DNA of 64,000 nt from positions 1 through 64,000 of the IMG/VR virus record IMGVR_UViG_3300031857_000055, one strand, 5' to 3'. The position numbers and the translations under genes were made by a program. The stretch is from a virus. Shown in pieces: positions 1,943 to 45,114 of this stretch (position 1 is its first letter; each line of letters opens with the position of its first letter). The notes under the pieces are model-generated. The model was not told where the DNA came from and made no database searches. It was given only the letters and a program-made list of their open reading frames with translations.

Positions 1943-3484
1943 ATGGCTACTTATCAGACAGGCGGTGGAACTTCAACACGGGTAGAGGCACGCTCCGTAG
2001 TTTTTACCTTATCGGGCGGGAAATCGTTTGAATATCGCTCCGGTAGCACCCCTGTAAATAGTGAGTTTGCCGCAGAAAGCCTAAGAGAACAAGTAACCCA
2101 ATATATTGCACAACTCCAAGCAGCAATTGCAAATACAAGAGACCCAGCCAGACTTTCTGCACTACAAGCGACACTTAATCAATCTCAAGCCGCCCTTCCA
2201 TTACTGACTCCGAATGGGGCTGTGTCTCGCCAAATTACGCAAGATAACAACGCTTCACGAACACCTATCCCGCCGGTTGTTGAGGTGCCGCCAACACCCC
2301 GCACCCCAACTCCCCCACCTGTAACAGCTCCTGCGCCAGTATCTACACCGACACCCGCACCTGCTCCGACCGCACCTCGTCCAGTCACCTCACCAACTCC
2401 GATAGTACGAGTTGACCCCAACGACTTCATTGGACCCGAACCAGTAAGAGCACCTGCACCTGCACCGGTAACAACACCAACGACTACAACTACGCCAGCC
2501 CCAACGCCAGTAACGGCTCCTCCTCCCATTGATTCAGAATTAGCAGGATCTCCGGAGTTTCAAGCACAGACACAATCGGCTCCTGCAACAGTAACCGACG
2601 AACCAATAGCGGTTACTACTCTTGGTGACGAGGCATTAGCCGCACCAATATTTGACCAAGCTGAATTAGAGGAATTTTCGGCGGAACTTGCGGTCGCTTC
2701 CCGAGAAGCAGTACTATCACAAGTTCCGTATGACGCTAGAGCAGATTGGAGAGTTAGACTTGCGCTATCAGATGATCCTAGCGTAAATTATCTTTATAAA
2801 GCGCCTAATCCCGGCATTCTTAAACCGTTAAACGCTACTAGTGGAGTAATATTCCCGTATACTCCACAGATTAATGTCACTTATTCGGCTAACTATAATC
2901 CGACTGACTTAACACACAGTAATTATAAAGTGTATCAATATTCCAATAGCTCAATTGATTCAATAAGTATTACAAGCGAATTTACAGCACAGGATGAGTA
3001 TGAAGCAAATTATCTGTTAGCAGTGATTCATTTCTTTAGAAGTGCTACTAAGATGTTCTATGGACAAGATCAAAATCCAAGAAGAGGTACACCACCTCCC
3101 CTATGTTACATATATGGTATGGGTAGCTATCAATTTGCAGGTCAACCATTAGCGATATCAGGGTTTACTTATAACTTACCAAATAATGTAGACTATATAC
3201 AAACATCTATGGGAGGTCGCAACCCATCAACCGCGGCTGCTACTACCCCTCCAGACAGAACTGCGGGTACTGGAGCAGCCCCAGGAGGAGTACCACCGCC
3301 TCCCCAATTCGCCCCGATTGCAGAACCCGGTACAATTTCTTGGGTACCTAGCAAAATTCAGTTAAGTATTAGTTGTGTGCCGATGATGAGTAGAAATGAA
3401 GTGTCAAATGAATTTAGTTTTGAAAAATATGCAACAGGTTCACTACTTAATGGGGTAGATACATACCGCGGAGGATTTTGGTAA
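1943..3484 (+). CDS. Virion protein, probable baseplate tube-cap/initiator (T4 gp48/gp54-like)
   Basis: 513 aa, with AAGGA six bases before the ATG. The N-terminus (about residues 1-90) is a small domain with a predicted helix. Residues about 110-205 are a Pro/Thr/Ala linker. The folded C-terminal part (about 295-513) includes F-T-A-Q-D-E-Y-E-A-N-Y-L-L, H-F-F-R-S-A-T-K-M-F-Y-G and a closing G-G-F-W. From memory, the H-F-F-R-S-A-T-K-M block is typical of the tail-tube-cap/initiator proteins of marine T4-like phages, which join the baseplate hub to the tail tube. Its place directly before gp53, in the baseplate block, supports this. The structural call is firm; the gp48 versus gp54 assignment is not. 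Confidence 0.6.
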   Translation: MATYQTGGGTSTRVEARSVVFTLSGGKSFEYRSGSTPVNSEFAAESLREQVTQYIAQLQAAIANTRDPARLSALQATLNQSQAALPLLTPNGAVSRQITQDNNASRTPIPPVVEVPPTPRTPTPPPVTAPAPVSTPTPAPAPTAPRPVTSPTPIVRVDPNDFIGPEPVRAPAPAPVTTPTTTTTPAPTPVTAPPPIDSELAGSPEFQAQTQSAPATVTDEPIAVTTLGDEALAAPIFDQAELEEFSAELAVASREAVLSQVPYDARADWRVRLALSDDPSVNYLYKAPNPGILKPLNATSGVIFPYTPQINVTYSANYNPTDLTHSNYKVYQYSNSSIDSISITSEFTAQDEYEANYLLAVIHFFRSATKMFYGQDQNPRRGTPPPLCYIYGMGSYQFAGQPLAISGFTYNLPNNVDYIQTSMGGRNPSTAAATTPPDRTAGTGAAPGGVPPPPQFAPIAEPGTISWVPSKIQLSISCVPMMSRNEVSNEFSFEKYATGSLLNGVDTYRGGFW

Positions 3485-3798
3485 TGGCAATTCAATCAAC
3501 ATACCCGCGCACGAGTCCGTATTATAACACTCCTGTCGTTGACAACAAGTTTTTAGACATTACAACCTATAGACCTATACCATTTAACCCGCAGGACGTA
3601 TTCATGACTGTCACACCGGTTTATCAGTTTAGACCTGACCTGTTAGCGTATGACTTGTACAATGATGCTAGATTATGGTGGGTATTCGCTGCCCGTAATC
3701 CTAACTTATTGGGACCAGACCCATACTTTAACATGGTAGCGGGCCTACAAATTTATATCCCCACACAAAACACACTACAGAGAGTATTGGGAATTTAA
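3484..3798 (+). CDS. 53: Baseplate wedge protein, T4 gp53-like
   Basis: 104 aa, starting at ATG 3484, which overlaps the previous stop codon (TAATG), with GAGGA 8 nt upstream. A TTG two codons earlier is less likely. The protein has the gp53 signature: an N-terminal segment ending in F-L-D-I, then Y-D-L-Y-N-D-A-R-L-W-W-V-F-A-A-R-N-P-N and a final G-L-Q-I-Y-I-P strand, a LysM-like arrangement. In T4, gp53 joins wedges into the baseplate ring. It is about half the length of T4 gp53 (196 aa, from memory), which is the usual size in aquatic relatives. Confidence 0.85.
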   Translation: MAIQSTYPRTSPYYNTPVVDNKFLDITTYRPIPFNPQDVFMTVTPVYQFRPDLLAYDLYNDARLWWVFAARNPNLLGPDPYFNMVAGLQIYIPTQNTLQRVLGI

Positions 3799-3824
3799 TT
3801 ATTATATGACGGATTATATTTTAA

Positions 3825-6773
3825 ATGACTACTAAAACCGTAAATCTTGGCAACATTAGAGTAGTATATACGATTCACGATGACCGCGGCTTCGGCACAG
3901 GATTAGCATATGATGTGGAAGTATACACCCGAGACGGCACTTTCTTAGCTAGGGGCTACACCTATGGCAATAATGGTTCGTCATCCGCAACAATATCCTT
4001 AGCAATATCGGAACTACAAAGAGTCAGCGCCACCCAGCCCGACGCTAATGATGCTATTTCATACCTTTCGGCAAACGGGGCAAGCGAACTCAACAGTTTG
4101 GCAGCAAGTTTGGAAGTTCCCTCGCCGCCGGCAACCCCCACAATTGATAATACCGCTGCACCAGCTAATGCCGCCCCAACCGGTACTAACACTTTGCAAG
4201 GTACAGCAAGTGATGACAGCGGAGCACAACCAACAACCCCTGCATCAGTAGCTACCGAAGCAGCTGGAACTTCTGCTGATCCGCCGCCAACACCAATCTT
4301 ACCAGGCGGTGCACCAGCGCAGCCCGGAACTGAAAGAGGAGATGCAGCCGGCACTACCCCTTCACCAAACAGTGCAGGTAGCCCTCCCTATGATAATGAA
4401 ACCTTTACTAGGGTAACCGAAGCACCGATCACAACCCCAGGTGGAAGGCCAGGCAGACGACTTAAAAATCCACTTGGATCATTAGCAAGTTACACTTATC
4501 AACTAAGTTTATACATGGTTACTGCATCGGCATACGAGGCATTTGTTGCTGGTGGAAGACGTAACATAAACTTATACTCAGAAGAATTAGCACCCAGTGC
4601 TACTACTCCTGAACAACGTGAGGAAGTCGCAAGTAACGGGGCATTTCTAATAGCACAAAGCGGTGGAATCGGAGGATCTGATCGCCGAGCTCCAGAATTT
4701 AAGTACGATTATTACATTGATAACCTATCATTTGAATATCAGATTGCCAATAATGGAACCGGCGCAGCAGTACCTAATATTAATTATAAATTTCAAATCA
4801 TTGAACCATATGGATTCTCGTTCTTAACTCAGCTTAGACGAGCTAAAGACGCAATGGAAAATTCGGCTAAGGGTAAACCATTCCCTAGAGATCCACTAAG
4901 ACAATTCTTTATATTGGGAATTAGGTTTCTTGGATGGGATCAGGCAGGAAGACAGATTCTCGGTAATGAGGTATTTGATGGGAATCCTATTGACCCTTCC
5001 GCGCCCGGCACTGGCGCGCTATTTGAAAATTTCTATGACATATCTATCAATACTATGAAGTTTAAATTAGATGGTAACGCCAGTGTGTATAATATTGATG
5101 CATCAGCAGCGAACATATCAACAACTATCAACATGCGAAAAGGTATGGTACCTCAGGGTGTAACAGTATCGGGTTCTACGGTAAGAGATTATCTTTCTGG
5201 TCCTAATGGACTTTTTACTCAACTAAACAAACAACAGCAAGACTTAGTTAATAACAACACTATCTCTAAACCCATTGTCTTTAAAATTAACTGGTTGGGA
5301 GACGCAGAGAGTATTGCAAACTCAAGTATACTTTCCGAATCTAGAACCGATAGAGCTGCCGAAACAAGTAGCACTGCGGAATCCACCACAGAAGTTAATC
5401 CAGAGACTGAAACTAGAGCAGCGCCTAATAATAACTCAGTGAATTTAGGTATTACAAATATACCTATCGTTCAGGCTATTGAGCAGATTATTTCCATGAG
5501 CAAATACCTACAAGATTCTATTGCTTTTAGTTATACCGACAGTACTGAAAACAACCCAGAAACTGCTGCTCCTGATATAGTAACAAGTCCTGATAAAAAA
5601 TTTACTTGGTTTCATATTAGCCCAGAAATATCTAACGTTGATTGGGACCCAGACATAAATGATTGGTCGTATACGATTACCTACACAATTCAAACCTATC
5701 TTGTTCCGGCGATAGACAATCCTTTTGTAAACAATAATACTCCATATTATGGTCCGCATAAAAGATATGATTATTGGTACACCGGACAAAATACTCAAGT
5801 TTTAAAGTTTGAGCAAGAAATTAATACTGGTTATACAAGTATTGTTACTGCCGGTAACCCGCCCAGAATATCTGATTCTAATAATACTGCTAATGGGACT
5901 GGTGGTGCCGCAGGTGGAGCTGGCGGTACCGCAGGTGGAGCTGGTGAAACCCCGGCAGCATCACCTTCACTCACAACAACTACTACTAATACTACATCTC
6001 CTATTAATAGTGATGGTGCTGGCGGAACCCTCAGCATGGAAGCAATTAATAGTGTTAGAACAACATTATATGATCCTGCTAGCTATGTAACTGCAAAAGT
6101 TGAAATATTGGGAGATCCTGATTTTCTTATGCAGGCATCCCCTGCATTAAATGAAGCTATTGCCAATAGCAACAATAGCAGCAACACCGCCGGGTTTAAT
6201 AGATTTTATCAAAACAACAACGACTTTACTATTAGTGCAAACGGCGGACATGTATTTTTTGAAATTGATTTCAAAGAAGCGGTTGACTATTCTGTAGGTG
6301 AAGTTAATGAACCATTTGCAGATGGTAAAGGAGTTACAGGTAAAGGCGGCACTTTATCAATTAATGATAGTATTAATATCATAAACTACCAAGACGGCGT
6401 TAGTGATAAAATCAACGGAGTGATATTCACTCTTAAATCAATTACTAATAATTTTAAAAACGGTTCTTTTACCCAAACCCTAGATGCATTCAATCCGTTC
6501 TTGTTCGGTGATTTAAGTAGGGTTCAAACACCGGGAGCGCAGCGTGAACCAACCGCTAATGTTGCTGCTACTACTGCTACTCCGCCGGCTACAGGTGACG
6601 GTGCAGCTACGGCTGCACCGGTCGCAAGGTCTAATCCCGGACTCCGGCAAGACCCGCCTGCTCCGGCAGCAAGACCGGCCGCTGCACCGGCACCGGCCCT
6701 TACTGCAAATACCCTTTTCAATCGCGGGCCATATGCTGATGGTTATCGCCTACCGGCTCCCCCAACAACATAA
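3825..6773 (+). CDS. Large virion structural protein, baseplate/hub region, not assigned
   Basis: 982 aa. It lies between gp53 and the gp5-like spike, so a hub or baseplate role is likely, but I do not recognise a named T4 counterpart. Three folded parts are separated by low-complexity linkers. An N-terminal domain (about 1-85) has alternating strands. A Pro/Ala/Thr linker covers about 105-205. A central domain (about 220-690) contains L-R-R-A-K-D-A-M and R-D-P-L-R-Q-F-F-I-L-G-I-R-F-L-G-W. A Gly/Thr-rich linker follows (about 690-735), then a third domain (about 740-905) ending F-N-P-F-L-F-G. The tail is rich in Pro and Ala. The upstream gap (3799-3824) shows no clear promoter and only a weak ribosome binding site. 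Known hub proteins such as gp27 are much shorter. Confidence 0.6.
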   Translation: MTTKTVNLGNIRVVYTIHDDRGFGTGLAYDVEVYTRDGTFLARGYTYGNNGSSSATISLAISELQRVSATQPDANDAISYLSANGASELNSLAASLEVPSPPATPTIDNTAAPANAAPTGTNTLQGTASDDSGAQPTTPASVATEAAGTSADPPPTPILPGGAPAQPGTERGDAAGTTPSPNSAGSPPYDNETFTRVTEAPITTPGGRPGRRLKNPLGSLASYTYQLSLYMVTASAYEAFVAGGRRNINLYSEELAPSATTPEQREEVASNGAFLIAQSGGIGGSDRRAPEFKYDYYIDNLSFEYQIANNGTGAAVPNINYKFQIIEPYGFSFLTQLRRAKDAMENSAKGKPFPRDPLRQFFILGIRFLGWDQAGRQILGNEVFDGNPIDPSAPGTGALFENFYDISINTMKFKLDGNASVYNIDASAANISTTINMRKGMVPQGVTVSGSTVRDYLSGPNGLFTQLNKQQQDLVNNNTISKPIVFKINWLGDAESIANSSILSESRTDRAAETSSTAESTTEVNPETETRAAPNNNSVNLGITNIPIVQAIEQIISMSKYLQDSIAFSYTDSTENNPETAAPDIVTSPDKKFTWFHISPEISNVDWDPDINDWSYTITYTIQTYLVPAIDNPFVNNNTPYYGPHKRYDYWYTGQNTQVLKFEQEINTGYTSIVTAGNPPRISDSNNTANGTGGAAGGAGGTAGGAGETPAASPSLTTTTTNTTSPINSDGAGGTLSMEAINSVRTTLYDPASYVTAKVEILGDPDFLMQASPALNEAIANSNNSSNTAGFNRFYQNNNDFTISANGGHVFFEIDFKEAVDYSVGEVNEPFADGKGVTGKGGTLSINDSINIINYQDGVSDKINGVIFTLKSITNNFKNGSFTQTLDAFNPFLFGDLSRVQTPGAQREPTANVAATTATPPATGDGAATAAPVARSNPGLRQDPPAPAARPAAAPAPALTANTLFNRGPYADGYRLPAPPTT

Positions 6774-6787
6774 AGAGACTATGAAAT

Positions 6788-9700
6788 ATGCCAGTTGACA
6801 GTTTTAAACCCCGCGGAACGAACAAACTTAATAGACCGACCCGTGACGGCGGCGGCTCCAAAAATTACCCAATTATCGGGATAGTGAAAAACAACATTGA
6901 TGCTAATCGTTCCGGAAAAATTTGGGTCGCACTACAAGATGGCAAGGGTCCCACTAATCCTAATTCACGAAGTGGCTGGACACAAGTACAGTACTTATCT
7001 TCATTTTTTGGCGTAGTACAAGCCAATGGCGGAGCAAATGATTTAGGGTCATACACAAATAATTCTAGTTCATACGGGCATTGGCAAGCCCCGCCCGACA
7101 TTGGTACTGAAGTAGTATGTATTTTTATTAACGGTGATATTAACAGAGGGTTTTATATCGGGGCCATTCCCACTCCCCAAACATTGCAGATGGTTCCTGC
7201 TATCGGGGCAAGAGATGTTGTTACACTCAATGAGGGGGAAGCTTCTGGATTTGGCGGAGCCACTAGACTGCCCGTAACTAACATTAACACCAATAATACA
7301 AACGTATCGAACAGCAACGAATTTTTAGATACTGCTAGACCAGTGCATAGCTACGCTGCTAGTATCATGCAACAGCAGGGTATATTAAGAGATCCTATTC
7401 GCGGTCCCATTAGCTCAAGTGCTAGTAGAGAACCAACAAGTAGAGTTGGGTGGGGAGTTAGTACTCCTGGACGACCCATATATGAGGGCGGATATACAGA
7501 CGAAACTCTACCCGACAATTTAGAACAAGGTAACGCAGAACGACTTAATGTTATTGCACGAAGAGGCGGTCACAGTATCGTTATGGATGACGGTGACATT
7601 ATTGGGCGTGATCAATTAATTCGTATTCGCTCTGCACTGGGCCATCAGATTATGATGAGTGACGATGGACAAACATTATCAATCTTACACAGTAATGGAC
7701 AAAGCTATATTGAATTAGGCAAAGAAGGTACTGTAGACATATTCAGTACAAATAGTATTAACATGAGAACTCAGGGTGATTTTAATATTCACGCTGACAG
7801 AAATGTTAATATACATGCTATGGAGAACTTTAATCTTCAAGCGAAAAACATTCATACTAATAGTGACGAAATAACTAAATCCAGAGCAGGCAAAGAATAT
7901 TCTATCACTGCATTAAACAATTTTACTGTAAAGGCAACTGCTGCAATTGCAATGTTGGCCGGTGGTCAAGCAAGCATGGTGGCAGGTGCAGAAGCATTTG
8001 TTAACGGTGATAAAGTTAATTTGAATAGTGGTAGCCCAGCATTACTACCGCCTGATGTACCTATCATTCCTGTAACAGCCCAGACAGATACATTGTTTGA
8101 TGAAGGTGTGGGTTGGGCAGCAGCACCCGCTAGACTATTATCTATCGCTTCACGAGCACCAGCACACTATCCTTGGGTCAATGCAGGTATGGGCGTTGAC
8201 ATAAGAAATAGTCCAAACGCTGCTGATAACTTGCCTGCTCCGTCATCGCCTCCGGTACAGCAATTAAATGCTCAAGCAGAAGCAACTAGACCCACTCCTC
8301 CCGCAGTAGCTACCGTAGCATCGGTTCCGCCTGTTCCAGCGTCTTCACCCACATTGGGTGCAGGTACAACGAACGCCGTACTTGCATCAACTGCAACAGC
8401 AGCAGCAGAAGGTCCAGCCGCCGAAGCAACTGCTGCTGGAGCAGGGGTAGTCAAGAAGCCAGGCAGTTCATTAATTTCAGGAATCAATAGTGCATTGAGG
8501 GTTGCTGCTGCTGTGGGCGGCGGCATTGCCGCAATTAGACAGCTAACGAGCGCAAGTTCTGCGGGTCAAGCACTAATAGCAGTCGGATCATTTGGGCAAA
8601 GTGCCGATCAACTGGCACGTTCTGGTGTGTTGAAGCCTGGTTCAGAAAGTCTTGTTAATGGATTAGCTAGTGCAGGAAAAACACTCACCAATACTCTTCC
8701 CGCATCAGTGTTTACTGGTAGAGCCGGAGCTGAGACAGTAGAACAATTAGCAGCAAACCCTGACGCACAAGCAACAGCAGCAGTCAACTTAATGACCACT
8801 GCTCAGCAGGAATTAACGCAAGCAGGCGTAATTAATGGTAGTGAATCAACAACTCAAACTGCCGGGCTAATAGCGGCTGCTAGTACTTTGGGCACCGATG
8901 CTGTTGTTGACGCAGTAAAGCAATCTTCTACAGCCACAGAAGCAGTGGAAACTGCGACAACTAATCTCACCGCAGCAGCCAGTGCAGTCGGTATCCCGGC
9001 AGCAGCGACCGCGGCAGCTGGAGCAAATCTAGTAAACAATGCAACGGCATCTGCCACAGCATTGGCAGGCGCTGCTGCTGGAGCAAAAAATGTTGCCGGC
9101 GCTATTGGAGCAGGTATATCAGCAGCTAAACTGGCTGATAGCTTAGGTGGATTGGGAGGAATAGCAAATTCTCTCAGGGCGCTGGAAGATGCAAACAGCG
9201 CATTAACTGGACTATTAGATTCAGTTAAGGGTATATCAGGATCTGCATTTAGTGCAGTCAAAGATGGATTTGGTAAATTAGAAGCCGGTGTACCACAAAA
9301 CTTGTCAGAAATTGCTAAAGAAAAAGCTGCTAAAACCGCTGTCACTGAGAATCTTCCAGGATCGCAGCCGGCATTTGCTAAGAGCTTGTCTAGCCTAGTA
9401 ACAAAAGCAGGCGATGCATTTAACAAGGCAGCTAAGTTATCCAGCGATCTTAGTAATTCAATTAATAGTGTGGTTGGTCCGGCCGGACGAGCATTATCAG
9501 GCGTCGCAGGAGCCGCTACCGGTGCTTTAGGAGCCGCTACTGGCGCCGCAGGAACTATTACTGGCGCTGCAGGAACTATTACTGGCGCTGCAGGAGCTAT
9601 TACTGGAGCAGCCGGTGCTGTTACCACTGCGGCCGGTGCTGTTACTAACGCAGCAGGTGCTGTGAATAGCATCACTGGTAACGTCAGTAATCTAACTACT

Positions 9701-10987
9701 GCTATCGGTGAGGTCACCGGACCTCCAGGCATTGCGGCAATTACTGCTGCCCCCGCCGTACCCGGAACCACTAATATTACTACTACACTGTCTTCAATTG
9801 CTGATGTATCATCCGAAATTGGTACTCTTCCCAACACGATTGGTGTAAGCACTGTTAATAATGCGATAGTTATTTCAACTTCAGCAGACCAATTAGTAGC
9901 GGAAGGAACTGGTGCAGTCAATGCAATTAGCGATTTAGCCAATGCAGGCAACAACTTAGAAAATGCCGGGCAACAAATCACTACACTGATTGACTCAACT
10001 ACAGGCAATGGTGTAGATAATTTGGCAAATAATATTAGCGGTGCAGTTGACAACATTAACAGCTTAGCAGGAGGAGCAACGTCACTTAAGAACGGCTTGT
10101 CAGGTCTAGCTAATGCTGCTAAGAAGGCACAGGGAGGCGGACTTGCTGCTAGAGCATCTGCACTGGCTAGCGGGGTAAGTAATTTGCCAGGCGGAATCAA
10201 AGCCTTCTCCAGTGTGTTAGATAAAGCAGATGAAGCTGCTAATCAGATACCAGGTACCGGTCAGTTAACAGGTCTGATGAATGATTTGCAGACGGGAGTT
10301 AAAAATGGACTTGGCAGTGCTACATCAACCCTAACTTCAGCAGGTAATGCATTGAATGCAGCTTCATCTGCATTGAATACAGCAAATAGCATAGTAGGAG
10401 CAGCAGGTGATACAACAGCGGCATTGGGTAACTTAAGTTCAGCAGCCAGCAAAGCGGGCGGACTCACTTCGGCTATTGCAAGTAAGCTTCCAATAGGACA
10501 GGTTACTCAGCTACTAACATCTGTGAGTGCTTTGGGCGCTGGCGGAGCAAGTCCTATCAGACTGCCTAGCTTGGGAGTCAACACGACAAACAGAGACGGC
10601 ATTACTGCCCAAATTAGAGGAGTATTGGGTGATGCTAGAATTCCAATACCAAATCTGTTAGGAGACATTATAGGTGATGCTATTGACAGTATAGAAAAGA
10701 GGGCACGTACTTTAAGAGAAGAAAGACGCCGAATTCAAGCACAACTTGACACTGCAAAGGAAGAAGAAACCGCAGCAGGTGATGCATTCATTGTTGCATT
10801 TAATACTCTGCCAGCCGGCGACCCAAGTATTGCTGCACTAGAACAGAGGTATCAGGAAGCAACAACTAAAACTCAAAATTTAGTACGAGAACTAGCAAAT
10901 GTAGGCAAACGTCCAAGAAAAGCTGCACCAGCGACAGACCCAGCTGCTGCTGGAACGCCCCCGGCCGGTACCGGAACTACTACGTAA
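6788..10987 (+). CDS. 5: Baseplate central spike, T4 gp5/VgrG-like, with very long Ala-rich extension
   Basis: 1399 aa. Residues about 20-125 form a gp5/VgrG-type OB-fold (I-I-G-I-V-K-N, then D-I-G-T-E-V-V-C-I-F and G-F-Y-I-G-A-I-P). Residues about 254-410 look like the triple-stranded beta-helix spike, with short repeated strands (I-R-S-A-L-G-H-Q-I-M-M-S-D-D-G, then D-F-N-I-H-A and N-V-N-I-H-A). The lysozyme domain that T4 gp5 carries between these parts is not seen. After a Pro-rich linker (about 480-530), roughly 770 residues are Ala/Gly/Ser/Thr-rich, including a 7-residue tandem repeat (nt 9539-9664). A charged, probably coiled-coil segment (about 1300-1330) and a Pro/Ala tail end the protein. 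The spike call is strong. The extension is unusual, since such spikes normally end at the needle tip. Confidence 0.8.
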   Translation: MPVDSFKPRGTNKLNRPTRDGGGSKNYPIIGIVKNNIDANRSGKIWVALQDGKGPTNPNSRSGWTQVQYLSSFFGVVQANGGANDLGSYTNNSSSYGHWQAPPDIGTEVVCIFINGDINRGFYIGAIPTPQTLQMVPAIGARDVVTLNEGEASGFGGATRLPVTNINTNNTNVSNSNEFLDTARPVHSYAASIMQQQGILRDPIRGPISSSASREPTSRVGWGVSTPGRPIYEGGYTDETLPDNLEQGNAERLNVIARRGGHSIVMDDGDIIGRDQLIRIRSALGHQIMMSDDGQTLSILHSNGQSYIELGKEGTVDIFSTNSINMRTQGDFNIHADRNVNIHAMENFNLQAKNIHTNSDEITKSRAGKEYSITALNNFTVKATAAIAMLAGGQASMVAGAEAFVNGDKVNLNSGSPALLPPDVPIIPVTAQTDTLFDEGVGWAAAPARLLSIASRAPAHYPWVNAGMGVDIRNSPNAADNLPAPSSPPVQQLNAQAEATRPTPPAVATVASVPPVPASSPTLGAGTTNAVLASTATAAAEGPAAEATAAGAGVVKKPGSSLISGINSALRVAAAVGGGIAAIRQLTSASSAGQALIAVGSFGQSADQLARSGVLKPGSESLVNGLASAGKTLTNTLPASVFTGRAGAETVEQLAANPDAQATAAVNLMTTAQQELTQAGVINGSESTTQTAGLIAAASTLGTDAVVDAVKQSSTATEAVETATTNLTAAASAVGIPAAATAAAGANLVNNATASATALAGAAAGAKNVAGAIGAGISAAKLADSLGGLGGIANSLRALEDANSALTGLLDSVKGISGSAFSAVKDGFGKLEAGVPQNLSEIAKEKAAKTAVTENLPGSQPAFAKSLSSLVTKAGDAFNKAAKLSSDLSNSINSVVGPAGRALSGVAGAATGALGAATGAAGTITGAAGTITGAAGAITGAAGAVTTAAGAVTNAAGAVNSITGNVSNLTTAIGEVTGPPGIAAITAAPAVPGTTNITTTLSSIADVSSEIGTLPNTIGVSTVNNAIVISTSADQLVAEGTGAVNAISDLANAGNNLENAGQQITTLIDSTTGNGVDNLANNISGAVDNINSLAGGATSLKNGLSGLANAAKKAQGGGLAARASALASGVSNLPGGIKAFSSVLDKADEAANQIPGTGQLTGLMNDLQTGVKNGLGSATSTLTSAGNALNAASSALNTANSIVGAAGDTTAALGNLSSAASKAGGLTSAIASKLPIGQVTQLLTSVSALGAGGASPIRLPSLGVNTTNRDGITAQIRGVLGDARIPIPNLLGDIIGDAIDSIEKRARTLREERRRIQAQLDTAKEEETAAGDAFIVAFNTLPAGDPSIAALEQRYQEATTKTQNLVRELANVGKRPRKAAPATDPAAAGTPPAGTGTTT
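9539..9664 (+). repeat. Six tandem 21-bp repeats in the spike gene
   Basis: Six consecutive in-frame 21-bp units starting at 9539, 9560, 9581, 9602, 9623 and 9644. They encode variants of T-G-A-A-G-T-I / T-G-A-A-G-A-V. Units 1-3 differ from each other at one or two bases; units 4-6 are more diverged. Looser copies precede them. A recent slippage expansion inside the Ala-rich extension is the simplest reading. Confidence 0.85.
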
Positions 10988-14891: not shown

Positions 14892-17800
14892 ATGGCACGC
14901 ATTAGAACACTAAATTTTCTTCCGGAAATTTTCCAAACACCCACCAACAGTCAGTTCCTCTCGGCTACACTTGATAGACTCGTAAGCAATCCTTCGTCAA
15001 CTCGTGTACAGGGATATGTTGGTAGCAAATTTGGTTCGGGAATTAATGCGCTTGATTATTATGTCACAGAGCCAACCAAAACTCGTGCAGATTATCAATT
15101 AGAACCAAGCGTGGTGTTTACAAAAGCAGAAGAAGAAATTGCTAATGATTTTATTACATACCCGGGCATAATTGATTCGCTCAAACAACAGGGTGCTATT
15201 ACTAATAACAACGATAGATTATTCAACAGTCAAATCTACTCATGGGACAGCTTCACTAATCTAGATAAGTTGGTCAACTATTATGAATACTACTGGTTAC
15301 CAATTGGTGCCCCAGCAGTTACAGTTGCTCCCAGTACTGTATTCATCAACCAAGATTATGTTGTCACTGACTTCCCTAATAGCTATGAAATCAGCGAAGT
15401 CGGATCAGCGATTGGAACAGGAACGAATCCTACAATCTCAGTGATTCGCGGTGGCACATATAGATTTGAAGTAAATCAAACTTCACAGTTCTGGATTCAG
15501 ACTGAGCCAGGTACTAGTGGATTTTCTCCCACACAAGAAAATCTACCTACAAGAGAAGTATTTGGTGTGGATAACAACGGTACTGAAGTAGGCATCGTAA
15601 CATTCAACGTCCCATTCAAGAATGCACAGGATCAATTTGTTTTCCCTGGCAACAATATGGTTGACGTAATTTGCAATATTCCGTTTGATCAGGTTAACGG
15701 TAGAAATCTGTATACGATTAATGACCCTGCTACAGGCGTAATTTATCCCGGACTAGATAATATTGACGGTGTGACTGGCTTAGAAGGCCTAAGAATACTG
15801 TTCTACGACACCGGAGTACCAGATGAGCAAGGATTCGTCTCATCGTATTATGACAGCACAACTTATGACGTAAATGATCCGTCCTTTACAGAACCTAAGA
15901 CTGTCACTGTCGGTAGCACTAACGCTAGTGGTAATAGATTATCAATGGCATCGGGCTTCACTACAGATGAACTAATTCCTAATCAAACTGTAACCTTTAG
16001 TGGAGTGCTATTAGGTGGCATCGTTGAAGGTCAAGTATATTTTGTAAAAGATATTATCAACTCAACCGACTTCACTATTTCCGAAGACCTTGAAGGTGAT
16101 ACTGTAACTGTATTTTCTCAGTCAGGCGCCAACATGATTGTTAACATCAATCAGGGCCAGTTTCAGAATGGATTTAACACTGTAGTAAGTGAGAACTTCT
16201 ACAGAATTCAGTATGTAGGTGATCCCGATAATCCTATTATTAGACTGTTACCTGATGGTACTATTCCTAATAATGAAAAGATTTCTCCGAGATTCGGTGA
16301 CCAATACATCAGTAGATCGTTTTACAGAAATAATTTAGGTGTTATTAGTATGATACCTATTATTACTGCACCGCTTGATGTGTTGTATTATCAAGATGGA
16401 ATCAATCCAAATAAAGTCGGCGTAATTAAAATTAATGATTCTGACATAGACAACTTTATTAATATTGAAACAGAAATCTTAGGTAGAACAACTTACACCT
16501 CACCTAACGGCGTACAGTTCACGAATGGATTGAAGGTTCAATTTGATGGTAACGTCTTCCCTAATTCATATCGCTCAGGCGAATATTATGTTGAGGGCGT
16601 AGGTACAGCAATAGAATTGATTCCGGTCAGTGAATTAATTGTTCCTGAGAAATTCTCTAGAGGAGACTTCATACCATACGATACTGTAGGCTATGACGAC
16701 ACTGATTATGATATTGAATTGTTTGTTCCAATTGACCCCGACTATATCACTATTACAAGAAATAGCATCAGCAAGAATGCATGGTCAAGAAGCAACAGAT
16801 GGTTCCACATTGACGTTATCAATGCCACTGCACAGTATAATGATAATCCAAATATCTTGACAGAATATGCGACTCTTGACAACAAAGCTAAGAGACCAAT
16901 CATTGAGTTTTATCCTAACTTAAAAATGTTTGATGCAGGTACTCAAGGTAAGAGACCAGTTGACTTCTTTGATACTCGTGCAACAGATGCATTGTCTCAG
17001 GTTGCAGGGTTAAACAATTATTTCCCTGACGTAGAAACCTATACTGGCAACACTGCTGTAGTTGCAAGCACACCAACTGTCATAGTCAATGTAGTATCCA
17101 TGGAGCTGGGTAAAACATATGAGCTTGTCAACGTTGATGACACTATACAAGATTCATGGAATGAGTTAGCAGGAACGTTGGGCGTTACGTATTTTCCGGG
17201 TGACAAAATCGTATGTGTTAAAGACGGAAACGATCTCCTAGTTCCTGGCACCGGTACTGGACGCTTAATAGATGATCAGACAACTGTAACTGTTCCGTCA
17301 GACGATGTTACTGGGGTATTCCAAATTGGGATGTATGTCGGTGACGTATTAAATATTATACCTACTAATGCACAGATTATTAATCTCACTGATGACGGGA
17401 CAACGACCACTCTCACTATCAATTATCCGTTCCCACAAGACATTGTTGGCGGAACAACATCAATCGTTGGTACTGACACTACAGTAAGCAACTATTCTGT
17501 TTTCCCTGGATCAAGAATTATTTTCTCTAACGATACCGACGAAGGTACAAAGCATAAGATTTACGTTGTAGATATCGTTGTTACTACTTTAGGTGGTAGT
17601 CCACAGATTGTGTTGATTGAAGCTGAAGACACTAATGTTGAAGTAGATCAGCAGGTTGTCATCACGAGAGGCTTCACCGAGCAAGGTAAAACATTCTATT
17701 TTGATGGCATTGAATGGCTACAAGCACAGCAGAAAGTAACTGTTAATCAGGCTCCTCTATTTGATGTGTTTGACGATAATGGTATAAGTCTTTCAGACAG

Positions 17801-20800
17801 CACAGTTTATAATAGTACAAGCTTTACTGGAACTACGCTTTTCTCATATGGTATTAATCCATTAACAGTTGACGATCCTATCTTAGGTTTCCCTGTAAGA
17901 TTCACTGATGTAGGCAATATCGGAGATATTAGCTTTGACGTTACTATCAATTCTGATACCTTTAACTATGTGCGCGGTATTGAATCAATAACACAGCAAG
18001 TAAATACTGGTTACGTACATAACTATATCAATAGAATTGAATTTGCTAGAGAATTGGGCTGGGTAACAGCAGTAGAAAACAGTGTACAGTATCAAGAATT
18101 CAACTTCAGATATAATGTTGCTACCCCAACAACTCAGTTTGTTTGTGATGTTGCTGCGTTACCTGAAGTAGAATTTGACAGTGTAGGTTGGCCAAGAGTA
18201 AAAGTATATAACAATAACAAGTACCTAGAACCAACTGATTACACCGTTGAAATATTTGATACTGCTACAAGAATTACCTTAAACAGTGCACCTGATGTAG
18301 ACACCGTAATTCAAGTATTGCTTCTGAGTGATCAAGTCAGTCAGAGCGGATTCTATCAGATTCCTGACAACTTGAACAGCAACCCATTCAACGAAGACTT
18401 GACTGTAGCAGATTTGGGTGACATTCGCAATCACTATCAAGATATCTTTGTCAATGCACCAAACACTACTGGTGATATCTTTGGCTCAAATAACTATAGA
18501 GACTGCGGTGACTTAACCCCATATGGTACTAAGATTATTCAGAACAGTGCTTCAATGGTACTACCGGGTGTGTTCTTACGTAAAACAAAATATGACCTAT
18601 TAAACGCATTGATGTTTACGAGCAATGAGTATGTCAAGTTCAAGCAACTATTGGTTGACACTGTACAAAATACCCAGTTCACTATTAGAAACACCCCAGC
18701 AGAAATTCTTGACGAAGCTATTGAGCAGATTGCAGCGAGTAAGAGTGAGATTAGCTCATTCTACTGGTCAGACATGCTGCCAAATAGATCGCCGCTAGCG
18801 GTAAATACATATAACTTTAATAGCAACACCGACGTAACTCGCTATCCGTTGAGCAAAGTTTATAATTTTGAATCAGCTAACTATGACAGCGTATTAGTAT
18901 ACTTGAACAGAACCGTCAATAACAATCTAGTACAAAGACAGCTCCTAAGAAATGTGGACTACACTATCAGTGCTGATAGCCCAACTGTCACCGTTACTTT
19001 AGATTTGGTACCCGGCGACCAAATCATAGTTAAAGAATATAATCAGACATATGGATCATTTGTTCCTTATACTCCGAGTAAGCTCGGACTCTATGCTTTG
19101 TACGAACCTAGTGTTGTATTAGACAGCAATTATTCTACACCTACATATTTCATTAAGGGACACGACGGATCATATACAAAGCTATATGGTACCTACATTC
19201 CTCAGACTGACACACTTTTAGACTTCAGAGACCAAACACTATTGGAATTTGAAAAGAGAGTTTACAACAACGTTAAGCTAAGCACAGAAGTTCCAATCAA
19301 GTTCTATGACGTATTGCCTGGCTTCTTCAGAGACAGTGACTATTCATATGATGAATGGTTGCAGATGTATTCAACTAATTTCTTGAATTGGGTTGGTCAG
19401 AACAGAATTGATTACAAGACTCAGTTCTTTAATAGAAACAACGAGTTCACCTACAACTACACTAACTCAAGCAACAAGTTGACCGGCGAGCAAATCCAAC
19501 AGGGTTATTGGAGAGGCGCATATCAATATCTATATGACACTACTACTCCTAATCTGACCCCATGGGAAATGTTAGGGTTCGCTAACAAGCCTACTTGGTG
19601 GGAGGAGCGCTATGGTCCCGCTCCATACACAAGCGACAACTTAGTATTGTGGGGAGACCTTGAATCAGGTAGAGTATATTCAGCAGATGGCACAAGTGTT
19701 ATTGTTCCTGAAGTAGCTCGCCCTGGACTTTTAGATATTATCCCTGTCAATTCAAATGGCAATTTGCTAAGTCCATTGAATAGCATCGTGGGGACTTATA
19801 ATGCAAATACTTTCCAGAAAGATTGGAAAGTAGGTGATGATGGCCCGGCTGAACTTAGCTATCGTCGTAGCTCAACATATCCGTTCGACGTTATCAAGTT
19901 GTTTGCAATGACAAAGCCTGCTGAGTTCTACAACTTAGCAGTTGACCTAGACAACTACAAATACAATGCTGAGTTTAATCAATATTTGGTAAACAACCGT
20001 GACCACTTGATTATCAGTGATGTTGAAATTTACGGTGATGGTATTGCTAAGACCAGTTATATTAACTGGATCGTAGACTATGAAAAGCAGTTTGGAGTAG
20101 ATACTACTCAAGAAATCAAACAAGCATTGCGTAATCTAGATGTTAGATTGGCATATCGTCTTGCAGGCTATAGTGACAAGACGTTGCTTAAGTTCTATGT
20201 TGAAAAGGGTTCACCAAATACTGCCAACGCATCATTGTTGATTCCTGACGAAAGCTATCAGGTTCTTCTTTATGATAACCAGCCATTCGACAAGGTAGTT
20301 TTCTCTAGCGTAATCATTCAGAAAACTGTTCAAGGTGGATTTACTGTTTTTGGCAATTCACAGTCCTTTGCTTACTTTATAATTAAGGCACCTGTTAATA
20401 GCGGTAGAAGCGAACTTGTTACTGTATTAGATAAGACAGTAAAATTAGCAACTGATTATTCATCTAAGGAAGTACTCGTCCCTTATGGCACAACCTTCTA
20501 CAGCATACAAGAAGTTGCACAATTCCTAATGAGCTACAACGCATACCTAACAGACAAGGGTATGAAGTTTAATGAAGTACAGGCTGGTACCGAGATCAAT
20601 TGGGAATTGATGGTACAGCAGTTCATGTATTGGACTCAGATGGGCTGGGAAGACGGAAGCTTGATTACATTAAATCCTGCTGCCAACGATCTTGTCTTTG
20701 ATAAAGAAGGAAGCATTGTTCAGCCGCTAACCATCCAACAGCAGAACTTCATTCTTAACCAAGACCTGTACCCTATTCAGATTAATACTCTTTGCGTGAA

Positions 20801-23800
20801 TCGTGACGGGACATACTTCAAAGTTCACACACTGAACGAAGGCGATAGCATGTCCTTCGCACAATTCAACGTGAGTAACTTTGAACATGGTATTGTGTTC
20901 AACAACACCACACTATTCAATGACGTAATCTATAATCTTGTTACTGGATTAAGACAAAACAGAATTACGTTGCGCGGAACTAAGACCAGCGAGTGGAACG
21001 GAACCGTAGACGCTTGGGGCTTTATCATTAACCAAGACAACGTAAAAGAGTGGTCAAAGGATGTTAAGTATCCAAAGGGTTCAATCGTTCTCCACAAGAA
21101 CAAATATTACACTGCACTAAGATTGTCAGAACCATCAACTGTCTTTAACGACCTTGATTGGAAATTAATCAACTATGAAGATGTGCAGAAAGGTCTGTTG
21201 CCTAACTCAGCGACTCGTTCGTTTGAAAGCACACTATATTATAACTGCAATGAAGCTAACCTAGAACAGGATGCTGATCTATTATCGTTCTCTTTGATCG
21301 GCTATCGTCCAAGAGATTATCTCGCATTAGCAGACTTGACAGATATTACCCAAATCAATGTCTACAAGAACATGATTAAGAACAAGGGTACTGTTAATGC
21401 GGTAACTGCATTTGACGGCGTTAACTTGCCTCAGGGCGGCATTGAATATGAAGTTTATGAAAACTGGGCAATCAAGTCAGGTGACTATGGTGGTTTGCTA
21501 AGTCAAAACTTTGTAGAGTTTAGGGTTGACCAAAATCTTTTGACCGGTAATCCAAGCATTGTATCATTGACCAATGGCGTCTACACTGAAGGCTCTCAGC
21601 AAGAAGTGCCTATCTATAGTTTGTTTAATTACGGTGATACTATTACTGATCCAAATGTATTGGCAGTAACCACTGACCCATATAATAATCTGTATCCATC
21701 AGCCGGTTATGCTAACTTTAACGATGTGAAAATGTCGTCCTTCTACTACGGCGGATTGCCTAATGGAGTCAACAAGGACGGTATAGTCGTTCCTATTCAG
21801 AATTTCTATGTAAGAGACTATCTATGGTTAGCAAGCTTTAAAGAAAAGTGGGGAATCTTTTCTTGGAGTCCGATCGGCGAGGTAGTTGAAGTAGCTGCGA
21901 ACTTAAACAACACTGCGACAGTGACGTTTAGTAAGCCGCACAACCTAAAGAATCTAGATCCAATTGCAATCGTCAACTTCAGCACGAATGTAGACGGCTA
22001 CTACATTGTAACACAGGTTGTTAACTTGAATCAAGTAATAATCAACTTGAGTATTTCTAATATCGGGTCAGAAAGTATCACTGGTTCAGGCGTAGGTATG
22101 TTTATCTACAGTCAGCGAGTAGCACAGCCAGGCGATATCAATACTCTACCTCTATTGGAAGCAGAGTTCAGCAAGAATACTGTCTGGGTAGACGAAAACA
22201 CTGACGGTGGCTGGGCAGTATATAGAAAAGGCATCAACTACGCTAGACAGGGTGAACTATCCACAACTACTTCAAGTACATTTGGTAATAGTGTTGCATT
22301 TACTGAATCTGCTGGTTACTTGGTCGCCGACTCAGCGAATGGAGTAGTATACAGATACTATTATAAAAATTCTAATTACGACCTAGCTGAAACTATTACC
22401 AATGACACCAGTTTTGGTGAGAAGATTGTACACAATGATAACACATTCGTTATTTCACAACCTACTACTGATCCTACTGTATACATATATGCATGGAATG
22501 ATACTGCTTTAGCAAACGAGTTGTTGCTAACTCAAACGATTGCTGCACCGATGGGAGTGACCGATTGGGGAAGTGAATTAGCTATTTCCGGCGATGGTAA
22601 TTGGGTCTATGTTTCAGATACGTTGAACACTCAAGTATATGTTTACAGAAAGAATAATCAAGAATTTTCTGCTGGTTATTTTGTCCCAACACAAACATAT
22701 GTAATTACTGAGTTGGGTACTACTGACTTTACTGCAATTGGTGCAATTGAAAACAGTGTTGGTATTACTTTTGAAGCAACAGGAATAGGATCTGGTACTG
22801 GTACAGCAATCAATGCTACATACGAATTAGTAAACATAATTGAAAATCCTGACATAGTGACGGCCGGTTCATTTATTATTGGAGAAGAATATAAAATTGC
22901 TTCATTAGGAAATACTGATTTTACATTAGTTGGCGCAGCATCAAATAATGTAGGGGTAGTATTTACTGCTACTGGCCCTGGCACTGGGACCGGAACTGCA
23001 TCAGCACAAAGCAACGGTTTTGGTACTGCAATCTCTACCGATTTTGACAGTGATTGCTTGTTCATCGGCGCACCCAACAAAGACTATAGCGTAAGCGTAA
23101 CTAATTGGGGAGAAGTTTACTTCTACCAACGTTCTGTGCAAAACTTTGAATCAACTGCTGTATCTACGTTAACGCAGCCGCAATTCTTTGCATTAGGATG
23201 GACACCTGATACTGCAACTAAAGCGGTAACAGCTACCTCTGACAGCACTGACAGAATCACATTGGCGAACGTATCTGGAATCAGTGTAAATGATGCTATT
23301 ACTTTTGTGGGCACCGGTCTAGCCGGAACAGATATTATTGCATACAAAACATATTATGTAGCCGGTATATCCGGTAGTGCTATTACTATTAAGGAATCAA
23401 GATCAACTAATGCTATAGTTCAACTATCTACCGTTTCGAGCATTTCTAATGCGACGGCTCACGTTCAAAGTGAATTGCTGCTCGTAAATGTCAACGGACG
23501 TATGGTTCAGGACAACAACTATGCAGTCGTAGGTAGTTCATTAGTATATACTGGTTCACTAAATGCAGGAGACATTGTAGAAGTCAGTGGTAACGATTTT
23601 TATAATGTTCAAACGTTCAACGCTGCTTCTAATAGCGCAATCAACATTCAATTTGGGTATGATTTGGACGTTACACGACAAGCATCTGAACTATTAATCG
23701 GTAGCCCATATGAAATTGACTCTGAGAATAGAGAAGGTTTAGTATATAGATTTACTAATGGTGGTGCAAGATTTGGTATTGTAGTAGGTGAGAATCAATG

Positions 23801-26800
23801 CTTCCTATCAACAACCCGCAGCGTTTTAATCAACGGGTATCAAGTCACATTGGCTGCTGGTACTGCCGCTGCCGTCGCCAATCAAATCGTAAATTCACGA
23901 GTACCTAATATTACTGCATCTGCAACTACAGACAATAAACTTATCATTCAAGTAGTTGATCCAAACTTAGCAGAAATCAATAATAAGTTGATGGTCACTG
24001 CATTTGATACTGCTACTTTAGATGAATTGGGTATCAGTGTGTATTCACCTACTCAAGTAATTCCCTGCCCTCACAAAGAAGGCCCAACTGAGTTTGGTAA
24101 GACAATTAAGTTTAACCAGTTTGATTCAGTTGTAATTGCTGCCCCTGCAGGTCCTAACTTTGTAGCCACCACATTTGACTTCACCGATGACGAGAATCTA
24201 GATAATGACACGGTGTTTGACAACAATGCAACCAGATTCCTTGAAGACTATCCTAACGCCGGCGCAGTCTACATGTTTGACCTGTTGACAAACAATAACG
24301 GTAGCTTGTTGAATCCGGGTGCATTCGTATACGCTCAGCCTTCTAACAGCGCAACTTTAGATTTTGTCATCAATCCGTACTACGGCGAAGCTGTTGACTT
24401 CTACGACAACACAGTTATTGTGGGTGCTCCTAACCAGATAATCAATCCATCGCAAGTAGGACAAGTAACAACATTTGTTAATGCAACTGGCGTGAGAAAC
24501 TGGTCAGAGTTCCGTCAAAGCGCACCAATCGTAGATATTAACAAGATTCAAAACACCCAGTTGTTTAGTGCAAGCACAAATAATACCCTAATAAATCTTG
24601 ATTACATGGATCCGTTGCAAGACAAGCTATTGGGTGCGATAAGAGAAAACATTGATTATGTTTCACCGGAAGATCCTGCCAGATACAACGTTGATCCACT
24701 AAACATATCTGCTAATACATGGGGAAGTCAACAGGTAGGAAAAATCTGGTTCAATACATCAACCGTCAGATTCGTAAACTATCATCAGAATGATGTAGTT
24801 TATAATAGTGAGTATTGGGGAACAGTGTTCCCAGGCTCAGATATCTCAGTATGCACCTGGGTAGCCAGTAATGTTCTTCCCGGTCAATATCAGGGACCTG
24901 GAACTCCTATTGACGCTACAAAGTATGCAGTCGGTAGTAGATTGAATGCGTCTAACATCGTTACCCCAGTTTATTATTTCTGGGTAAGAAATAGCGGTCT
25001 AATCGTTAAAGAGCGTGAGAAGACCCTATCGGACGCAGTTCTTGCTTCATACATTGCAAATCCACAAAGTTCAGGCATTGCATATATGGCACCTCTGTTG
25101 CCTAATACTTTTGCGCTGTACAACTCAGCAGAATATATCAACGATGCTGATAGTGTTTTCCATATCGGATTTGCTACTAACCAAGACACGGATGTTCCAC
25201 ATAACGAATTTAAGTTAATTCGCCAGAACTTCCCTGATGACTTCTTACCAGGACTGATGCCAGGTGAACGGCCATTCTCTCTATATGCAAGAATGCTTGA
25301 TAGTTTGTCAGGAACTACTATTAGTGGGGAGATCGTACCTAATCCGTTCTTGCCATTAGCAGTACAGTCAGGCGTATTAGCAAGACCAAGACAAAGCTTC
25401 TTCTACAACAGATTTGAAGCACTAAAGAACTACTTGACATATGCTAACGCAGTTCTTGTACAGTATCCTATTACTGAAATAAAGCCGGACATTTCGTTCG
25501 CTTTCGTTTCAGATGAATTTTACAATACCGCAGATTATTGGGAATACATCAACTGGTGGGCACCTGGTTATAACAATAGCACAAGAGCTTTTGTGCAGGT
25601 ACCGCTATACGCTGACTTAGCAGAGCTTGTAGTAAATCCAGACACTCTTGTTAAGGTGGATAACAACGGTACCGGCTCATTTGAAATCTATCGTTATGAC
25701 GGCGAAGGAGTTTGGACACGAGTTGGTCTAGAAAACGGAACAATCCAATTCAGTAGTGCATTGTGGGAGTATGCTAAGTTTGGCTTAGGATACGGAAACG
25801 ATTTCTATGATACTATACCATACGATGACTATCCAAGTGAAGCAACAAGAAATATCATTCGCCTCCTAAACGAGCAAATCTACACTCAGGAGTTGTTGAT
25901 TCACAGAAATAAGAGTCTAATTCTACTCTTAGAGTATATCCAAACGGAAACGATAGAGTCACAAAATTATTTGCCTTGGCTTTCTAAAACATCATTGATG
26001 GATGTATTCCACACCGTTCGTGAACTAAGACCGTTTGAAGTATTCAAGAGCGACAACGTTGAATTCTTAGAAGGTTACATTAACGAAGTTAAACCTTATC
26101 ACGTAGTCCTTAAGGAATTCTTAGTCAAGTATGATGGTATGGAAGTCTATGACGGAAACTTCACTGACTTTGATGTTCCCGCAACATATAATAATAATTT
26201 TGATCAGTACATAAGCCCGCAGCTTGTATTCACTGACCCTGATAATGAATATACGTATGATGAGAATTCACCAATCTGGTCTACTGCGCCATACACTCAG
26301 TGGTATCAGAATTATGGTTTGTCATTGACTGGACAAGAAAACTATCTCATAACTACACTAAAATCATATATGGATTTGGGGTCTAACGTAATGCTTGTAG
26401 ATAACGCTAGCGGATTCCCATCCAATGGCGTCATACAGATTGATGGCGAAATAATTTCTTATGCGTTTGTTGACAGAAACTTAAATCTGTTGGGAGGCTT
26501 GTCAAGAGGTCTTAACAACTCACAAGTGTCAGAACATATTCCTGACTCAGATATCTTCATTGATTTGCCTGCGGTGGTAGTGTTGGATGAAGGTTCCGGC
26601 TACACTCAAGTACCAAAAGTAATAGCACACGTTGATACTACATTGTATCCGGCACCTAGAAAAGAAGCAATACTACAAGCAGTGATGAGCGGCGGCAGAG
26701 TAAGTTCAGTTCAAGTTATTGATCCGGGCGCGGGCTATGTTGTTCTGCCTGAAATCAAAATTGACTCAGCATACACTATCTTGTTCTCCGACACAGACAT

Positions 26801-37944: not shown

Positions 37945-39183
37945 ATGGCATATACAATAGTTAAAAGCGATGGTACAGTACTTACCACCATTCCAGATGG
38001 TACGATAGATACTACCAGTACCTCTCTTGGATTACCAGGAAGAAGCTTTTCCGGTTATGGACAAGCTCAAGACACAAACTTTGTTCACTTAACAGAAAAT
38101 TTTGCTTCTTCTACTCCTCCTCCTAATCCTATTAGAGGTCAGCTTTGGTACAACACAACTACTAACACGATGCTTGTGTGTCCAGCAGACGGAGAAGCAA
38201 ACGCAGCAGCTTGGTTAGCACTAACTTCAACATCAAGTGGTTCTACTACTACATTCGGTAACATTTCAGTAAGCGGGTCAATCACAACTTCTGAATTGAC
38301 AGTAGACAATGAAATTTCAGCCGGCTCAATATCAACCGACTCATTGACTGTTACTAATGACGCAAACATTGCTAATGCTACTCTATCGGGAACTACCACA
38401 ATTGCAAGCACTCAAACAGCAATTATTACAACAGGCGCAGCCGCTACAAACGGTAGCTTGACAGGAACTTGGACAGTATCCGGTAATGGTGTAGCTAATA
38501 GTGTTAACGGAACTGCTCTTTGGGTTACAGACGGTAACCTTGTAATTTCAGGCGCAGGTAGTATCGGTATACGAACCGATAACTATATGTACGCAAACGG
38601 AGTATCCATTCCACTAGGCGGTACATATGGTAACAGTAACGTAGCAGCATACTTACCAACATATGCAGCAAACATCGGCCCCGTAGGCGGCGCAGCAGTG
38701 TTTAATGGTAGAACTTTATCTACTGGTGCAAATACAACTACTGGTAACATTACAGGTAACTGGTCATTAACTGCTGGCTCACGCCTCAACGCTACTTACG
38801 CTGACCTTGCAGAACGTTTCGCAGCAGATGAAGTGTATGAACCAGGTACTGTAGTAGAATTGGGCGGCGAAAAAGAAATCACAATTGCAAAAGATGAACT
38901 GTCAGAGAAGATATTCGGTGTTGTTTCAAACACTGCTGCCTACTTGATGAACGCTGGTGCCGGTGACGATGATACTCACCCTGCAATTGCGCTTGCCGGA
39001 CGAGCTTCAGTTAAAGTTGTCGGCTCTATTAAAAAGGGTGATAGACTTGTAAGCGCCGGAAATGGAGTAGCAAGAGCAGCCTCTGAAGCTGAAGCAACTG
39101 CGTTCAACACTATTGGTAGATCATTAATAAATAAAGATACAGAAGACGCCGGCATTATTGAAGCCGTTGTTATGATAAGATAA
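37945..39183 (+). CDS. Second tail fibre, paralogue with a peptidase-G2/chaperone-like C-terminus
   Basis: 412 aa. The first 280 residues parallel the fibre at 35334: T-T-I-P-D-G-T-I-D-T-T-S-T, R-G-Q-L-W-Y-N-T-T, then Y-A-N-G-V and N-S-N-V-A-A-Y-L-P-T-Y. The C-terminus is unrelated to the HxH tip. From about 283 it reads Y-A-D-L-A-E-R-F-A-A-D-E, then P-G-T-V-V-E-L-G-G and I-F-G-V-V-S-N-T, a pattern I associate with the peptidase-G2-like/intramolecular chaperone domain at the end of phage fibres. Whether it cleaves itself is not visible. Preceded by a late promoter box. Confidence 0.75.
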   Translation: MAYTIVKSDGTVLTTIPDGTIDTTSTSLGLPGRSFSGYGQAQDTNFVHLTENFASSTPPPNPIRGQLWYNTTTNTMLVCPADGEANAAAWLALTSTSSGSTTTFGNISVSGSITTSELTVDNEISAGSISTDSLTVTNDANIANATLSGTTTIASTQTAIITTGAAATNGSLTGTWTVSGNGVANSVNGTALWVTDGNLVISGAGSIGIRTDNYMYANGVSIPLGGTYGNSNVAAYLPTYAANIGPVGGAAVFNGRTLSTGANTTTGNITGNWSLTAGSRLNATYADLAERFAADEVYEPGTVVELGGEKEITIAKDELSEKIFGVVSNTAAYLMNAGAGDDDTHPAIALAGRASVKVVGSIKKGDRLVSAGNGVARAASEAEATAFNTIGRSLINKDTEDAGIIEAVVMIR

Positions 39184-44887: not shown

Positions 44888-45114
44888 GAAATAGAAAATG
44901 GGAGTGCATTGGTATGGATATGCCTAGCCAAAATGCCGTATATAATATCCGTGCGCAAGAAATCAGAGATTGGATTGAAGAACAACCGACAGTCATGTGG
45001 GCGCAGTATGGTATAGATGAGATTTACGAGGGTAAACCTATATCTGCAATGTTTGGGCAGAACTATGTCTTTACAGAAGAAATGGAGGCGTGGTTCACGT
45101 TAAGATGGGTATGA
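44854..45114 (+). CDS. Small hypothetical protein (86 aa) between radical SAM genes
   Basis: Starts 34 nt inside the preceding gene; an internal start would shorten it. The stop (TGA 45112-45114) overlaps the ATG of the next radical SAM gene (ATGA). It has several Trp (K-W-E-C-I-G, M-W-A-Q-Y-G) and ends E-A-W-F-T-L-R-W-V, a hydrophobic ending I have seen in small phage proteins. It could be a partner or substrate of the adjacent radical SAM enzymes, but nothing in it proves this. Confidence 0.5.
   Translation: MSTSKFDEPSLRNRKWECIGMDMPSQNAVYNIRAQEIRDWIEEQPTVMWAQYGIDEIYEGKPISAMFGQNYVFTEEMEAWFTLRWV

Follow-up and report, generated by a model that had tools for sequence, protein, structure and literature searches.

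The window analyzed here comprises 64,000 nucleotides of the IMG/VR virus record IMGVR_UViG_3300031857_000055 and contains, on its plus strand, an open reading frame (positions 6788 to 10987) of 1399 uninterrupted codons with no internal stops. Its product is a central spike of the gp5/VgrG type, most likely from an uncultured T4-like jumbo phage. The gene order, which runs from a gp53-like frame at approximately position 3480 through a 982-aa gene to gp5, gp25, and gp6, is that of a gp5/VgrG-type locus. The features recognized along the gene are as follows.

6788 to 10987, plus strand: whole gene in a single open frame, gp5-type spike plus C-terminal module of approximately 930 residues, 1399 aa
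6788 to 8017, plus strand: spike, OB fold and needle, residues 1 to 410 (matches to phrog_13211, Pfam Phage_base_V, and PA5oct gp5)
8081 to 8233, plus strand: needle end, residues 432 to 482, including RAPAHYPW (456 to 463), a motif common to short spikes
8231 to 8380, plus strand: Pro-rich linker, residues 482 to 531 (Pro-rich part given also as 482 to 519), with the gene break of the L024 clade inside
8561 to 8920, plus strand: core 1, degenerate transglycosylase/lysozyme-like domain, residues 592 to 711 (hhalign, Foldseek, pLDDT)
8921 to 10132, plus strand: Ala-rich helical region of variable length, residues 712 to 1115 (periodicity in 861 to 1120; length variation among homologues)
9239 to 9328, plus strand: conserved block inside the Ala-rich region, residues 818 to 847 (AFSAVKDGFGKLEAGVPQNLSEIAK; alignment A1)
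9506 to 9663, plus strand: 21-bp tandem repeat, giving a 7-residue repeat of GAAGTIT type, longer than in relative L009
10163 to 10669, plus strand: conserved C-terminal block, residues 1126 to 1294 (SGVSNLPGG, IPGT, NTTNRDGI...GDARIPIPN; alignment A1)
10673 to 10909, plus strand: C-terminal helical hairpin or coiled coil, residues 1296 to 1374 (AF2 pLDDT up to approximately 92)

As seen for the N-terminal part, residues 26 to 413 match phrog_13211, the gp5 family of jumbo T4-like phages (E value of 9.7e-32), indicating an OB fold. The Pfam Phage_base_V model matched the window spike under the cut-off (E value of 0.0075) and scored above it in the homologues of PA5oct, Atu_ph07, and PBECO4. 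In the first tblastn search, the best match from a cultured phage was gp5 of Pseudomonas phage PA5oct, with 31% identity to the window spike over residues 10 to 425. A triple-stranded beta-helix needle is suggested by homology to spikes that carry DUF2345/Gp5_trimer_C matches. A lysozyme of the T4 gp5 style, inserted between the OB fold and the needle, was not found, as no Pfam lysozyme was recognized anywhere in the window protein. A sequence-only reading had let the needle run to about residue 410, followed by a Pro-rich linker; the linker is present, but the needle continues to approximately residue 463, where RAPAHYPW also terminates the short spikes of relatives. Atu_ph07 and Phosso carry the counterpart of this motif as RxPTHEPF.

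The same reading had described an Ala-rich extension of roughly 900 residues from position 8200 to position 10987, and this was borne out: the interval corresponds to residues 471 to 1399, that is, 929 residues. The succession of an Ala/Gly/Ser/Thr stretch and a coiled coil was also recovered, with Ala making up 26 to 36% in parts of the Ala-rich stretch and the hairpin lying behind it; Trp and Cys are absent beyond residue 500. Since dN/dS lies between 0.02 and 0.3 across all measurable parts of the extension, we conclude that it is translated and constrained. Hydrophobic residues recur with a heptad-like period of 3.45 to 3.55 residues in positions 861 to 1200 (shuffle P of at most 0.002), and the array of 21-bp repeats, longer in the window than in its relative L009 (95% identity), lengthens the Ala-rich part. 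In the AF2 model of the extension, only core 1, one segment before core 1, and the C-terminal hairpin were predicted confidently, and most of the Ala-rich part had a pLDDT below 50. A Foldseek search of this model against the PDB returned mostly coiled coils, including coiled-coil-type neighbors of the hairpin, none of them significant, and a PDB profile search with the whole extension gave mostly coiled-coil-like chance matches. Pfam and PHROGs searches of the extension yielded nothing beyond a weak match to phrog_27932 (E value of 3e-4). The suggestion of a membrane-active segment is weak, given that the 19-residue hydropathy windows of the protein reach at most 1.37, none exceeding 1.6.

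Residues 592 to 711 (core 1) are the best-conserved part of the extension and were modeled with a pLDDT of approximately 80 to 90. The first lead to their identity was a weak tblastn match of the extension to gp5 of phiM9. Aligned by hhalign with the phiM9-type domain, core 1 gave a probability of 97.7 and an E value of 1.4e-12, whereas the negative controls (40 permutations of the columns, a reversed profile, and every block of the extension beyond the domain) gave E values of at least 0.06. A Foldseek search against predicted viral structures matched core 1 to the Atu_ph04 protein annotated as "baseplate hub + tail lysozyme" (probability of 1.00 and root mean square deviation of 3.0 Å over 108 columns, with an E value of only 0.2) and also to an uncultured gp5-type protein. 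Against the PDB, core 1 had no significant Foldseek neighbor; leech destabilase lysozyme appeared at an E value of 6.8, which we did not count as evidence. The phiM9-type family is characterized by the motifs ES..Y, GYxGxYQ, WTGxxG, and a YYN-like element, and Pfam Transglycosylas touched four of its nine members (best E value of 0.0032). In pYD6-A, an N4-like phage, a domain of this family opens the virion RNA polymerase. Judged from these comparisons, core 1 is a homologue of the transglycosylase-like domain that rhizobial T4-like phages carry in gp5. Its enzyme ancestry is suggested by the profile comparison, the weak Pfam matches, and the way in which the rhizobial relatives are annotated. 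The earlier statement that no lysozyme domain is seen thus needs revision: a lysozyme-like domain is there, in degenerate form. We call it degenerate because the motifs ES, Q, and YN and the conserved His are missing; in the joint alignment, none of them occurs in the window or in any relative covering those columns. This suggests that core 1 has lost catalytic activity.

The spike is encoded at 36 viral-contig loci in IMG/VR. Among the loci with a full gene, relatives with the same fusion, which the sequence-only reading had proposed to look for, were found in approximately 12 distinct contigs from different samples, with fused proteins of 1049 to 1400 aa; L009 and L013, whose spikes are 95% and 68% identical to that of the window, are among them. 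Four other loci (L024, L025, L027, and L029) encode a spike of 491 to 493 aa followed by a separate gene of 597 to 649 aa, and in L036 and L038, a separate 553-aa gene follows the spike. By BLAST and alignment, these separate genes, which sit between gp5 and gp25, are homologues of the extension. The gene break falls within the linker in the L024 type and immediately before core 1 in L036. A tree of the spike part, from which L036 and L038 were left out since the contig start truncates their spikes, nests the L024 clade among fused relatives, and the simplest reading of these sequences is that splitting would have occurred at least twice. Two sister lineages encode the extension as a gene of its own, next to a spike that measures approximately 492 aa where complete. 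It is therefore a separable module and not an inherent part of the spike. Covalent attachment to the spike may be dispensable. Among homologues, the module measures 553 to 970 aa. No copy of the spike was found in a search of bacteria and prophages, and a search for intermediates starting from L041 returned only L041.

If core 1 is inactive, cell wall cutting might reside elsewhere. No Phage_lysozyme match was found in the window record or in six relatives. Three sister genomes encode tape-measure-like proteins of 1243 to 1346 aa; the window record begins only shortly ahead of the late sigma gene and does not extend to that locus. In L009- and L014-type contigs (L013 belonging with the latter type), these genes lie upstream of the baseplate genes. 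M23 (E value of 1e-25) and SLT (E value of 3e-8) domains lie at the C-terminal ends of two tape-measure-like proteins of the L014-type contig, and that of the L009 type, 95% identical to the window, matches an M15 peptidase weakly (E value of 0.0012); in that of the L024 type, no hydrolase domain was recognized. The C-terminal peptidase or transglycosylase domains of these proteins probably carry out the cutting in place of core 1. A tape-measure role for the module itself, and with it the proposed tape-like filament, was rejected, since its length varies freely among homologues and the three sister genomes have separate tape-measure-like genes.

Overall, these results support the idea that the extension is a second functional unit. 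The role we favor, to which we give an even chance, is that of a structural appendage at the needle tip, in which a dead domain touches the wall or the baseplate and helices oligomerize, with cutting left to the tape-measure-like proteins. Such a module would start with the motif-less transglycosylase/lysozyme-like domain and continue through the heptad-patterned Ala-rich stalk to the conserved block and the coiled-coil hairpin. Carried by a trimeric spike, it would be present in three copies per virion, on the assumption that its number matches that of the spike. The dead domain might contact or bind peptidoglycan, or might simply fold against the baseplate; the helical segments would oligomerize. 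We infer this virion location and oligomerization, as well as the binding of the appendage to the wall, the last as a possibility.

Two alternatives are each unlikely to a similar degree. One is an ejection-type protein whose Ala-rich helices leave the spike past the outer membrane and line a DNA conduit through the periplasm or inner membrane, as T7 gp16-type proteins do. Its broad layout, a transglycosylase-like domain and then Ala-rich helices, is that of ejection proteins, the phiM9-type domain stands at the start of the pYD6-A virion RNA polymerase, and the module can come as a separate protein. However, the window protein and most of its homologues lack a classical transmembrane window, in contrast to three of the four tape-measure-like proteins of the group, which could already fill the conduit role. 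The specific version, in which the spike of a contractile jumbo phage carries a former wall-cutting domain and Ala-rich helices that the needle delivers in cis or in trans as the conduit, is less likely still. The other alternative is an assembly factor or plug that is made with the spike, is cut off at the Pro-rich linker, and builds or holds the hub before ejection. T4 gp5 is cleaved during assembly, which provides a precedent, and the breaks in the linker or just before core 1 give separate proteins in two lineages, as if a cleaved product were equivalent. Nevertheless, no protease site was identified, nor was similarity to known assembly chaperones. It is very improbable that the module is a carried effector or toxin, as the sequence-only reading had considered. 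As in the evolved VgrG proteins of type VI secretion, an extra C-terminal part is placed at the tip of a VgrG/gp5-type spike, and the C-terminal trypsin-like domain on Atu_ph07 gp5 indicates that nonlytic enzymes can ride there; however, no effector or toxin domain was found in the window protein with Pfam or PHROGs, the sole folded globular domain is without its catalytic motifs, the helices are of low complexity, and the module is conserved throughout the clade. Finally, an assembly join or frameshift merging two genes, for which the separate gene in some relatives might speak, has next to no probability and is refuted by identical or homologous fusions in the distinct contigs from different metagenomes and by purifying selection on the frame on both sides of the junction. 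A separate gene beside a normal-length spike, the other objection foreseen from the sequence alone, does describe two sister lineages, and the fusion is nevertheless real here.

Enzymes at the C-terminal side of the needle are already known from Klebsiella phage RaK2, whose gp078 is an 886-aa protein with a C-terminal lysozyme (PMC3622015), and are also seen in Escherichia phage PBECO4, Atu_ph07, and Xanthomonas phage XacN1. RaK2 gp078 and PBECO4 gp5 resemble the window protein in having an OB fold and needle and, beyond these, an enzyme domain within a long C-terminal extension, in a similar gene order (gp53, hub, gp5, gp25, and gp6). Yet, in the first tblastn search, similarity was confined to the spike part, and the PBECO4 extension ends in a lysozyme recognized by Pfam, unlike the seemingly dead domain and Ala-rich stalk of the window. 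The gp5 proteins of phiM9, Atu_ph04, and OLIVR5 (rhizobial T4-like phages, Pootjesviridae) share the homologous domain. In contrast to the window, phiM9 has this domain upstream of the needle repeats, and the phiM9-type family retains ES, Q, and YN and has no Ala-rich stalk. A parallel layout of needle, lysozyme-like SLT_3 domain (E value of 6e-16), and helical-looking tail is found in gp5 of XacN1 (926 aa) and of the Stenotrophomonas phages RAS14 and CM1; unlike core 1, the XacN1 SLT_3 is recognized by Pfam and apparently intact, and its tail had no homology to the window module by hhalign. PA5oct gp5 (477 aa) has no extension at all. The window differs in having a degenerate domain followed by a long Ala-rich stalk, in a module that is fused in some phages and a separate gene in others.

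The position behind the needle tip can thus be viewed as a slot whose content varies in the evolution of jumbo phages: nothing (PA5oct and SCTP-2), a lysozyme (PBECO4 and RaK2), a trypsin-like domain at the C terminus (Atu_ph07), SLT and a helical tail (XacN1), or, in the window, a putatively inactive transglycosylase-like domain with its long stalk, fused or separate. The last would be an example, open to testing, of an enzyme domain that a phage retained for structure or binding once activity had moved to other tail proteins. The gene slot between gp5 and gp25, where the separate modules lie, encodes a lysozyme in PBECO4 and XaC1 and a separate M23 peptidase in XacN1, and in Atu_ph07, a tail lysozyme (PF18013) lies closely after gp5.

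Enzyme-like domains were observed beyond the needle in the central spike, gp5, of other phages. The gp5 genes of Atu_ph07 and Phosso are listed at these two loci of related phages:

L003, 4905-7502, gp5 gene
L002, 4914-8048, gp5 gene

At its C-terminal end, the Atu_ph07 gp5 carries a trypsin-like peptidase domain (E 6e-17), and in the Phosso protein a Gly-rich linker is followed by a C-terminus that, by eye, resembles this trypsin-like end. An M23-like stretch was seen at approximately residues 520 to 640 in the gp5 of PBECO4, XaC1, and Vibrio 2.275 (loci L005, L006, and L007). Among these three, Pfam support for the stretch was found only in the Vibrio 2.275 protein, where it was weak. On inspection by eye, the zinc ligands seem to be missing from the stretch, which is perhaps a second dead hydrolase past a needle.

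Irregular or paired genes were also seen in relatives. At locus L023, overlapping frames (6848-8044 and 7998-10904) interrupt the spike within the needle; the break resembles the result of a sequencing error or a frameshift rather than a clean gene split. At locus L039 (6083-8968 and 8977-11388), gp5 and the gene upstream of it share similar short end tails (TRIYG...RYY and TRVYG...RYY, respectively), perhaps a common docking signal. In the phage of locus L088, two tape-measure-like genes lie side by side (3049-7089 and 7096-10986), one with an M23 and the other with an SLT C-terminal end.

In the window itself, positions 14892-34538 encode a giant protein of 6,548 amino acids, whose start matches the virion structural family phrog_10938. 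The product of 37945-39183 contains a Peptidase_G2 autoproteolytic domain and shares its N-terminus (phrog_14394) with that of the adjoining gene, 35334-37574. Five neighboring genes (43484-49928) match radical-SAM PHROGs, and a nucleotide-sugar epimerase and a UDP-glucose dehydrogenase come after them (coordinates listed with the cassette, 51219-52229 and 58793-59980); together, these genes look like a sugar or polysaccharide cassette.
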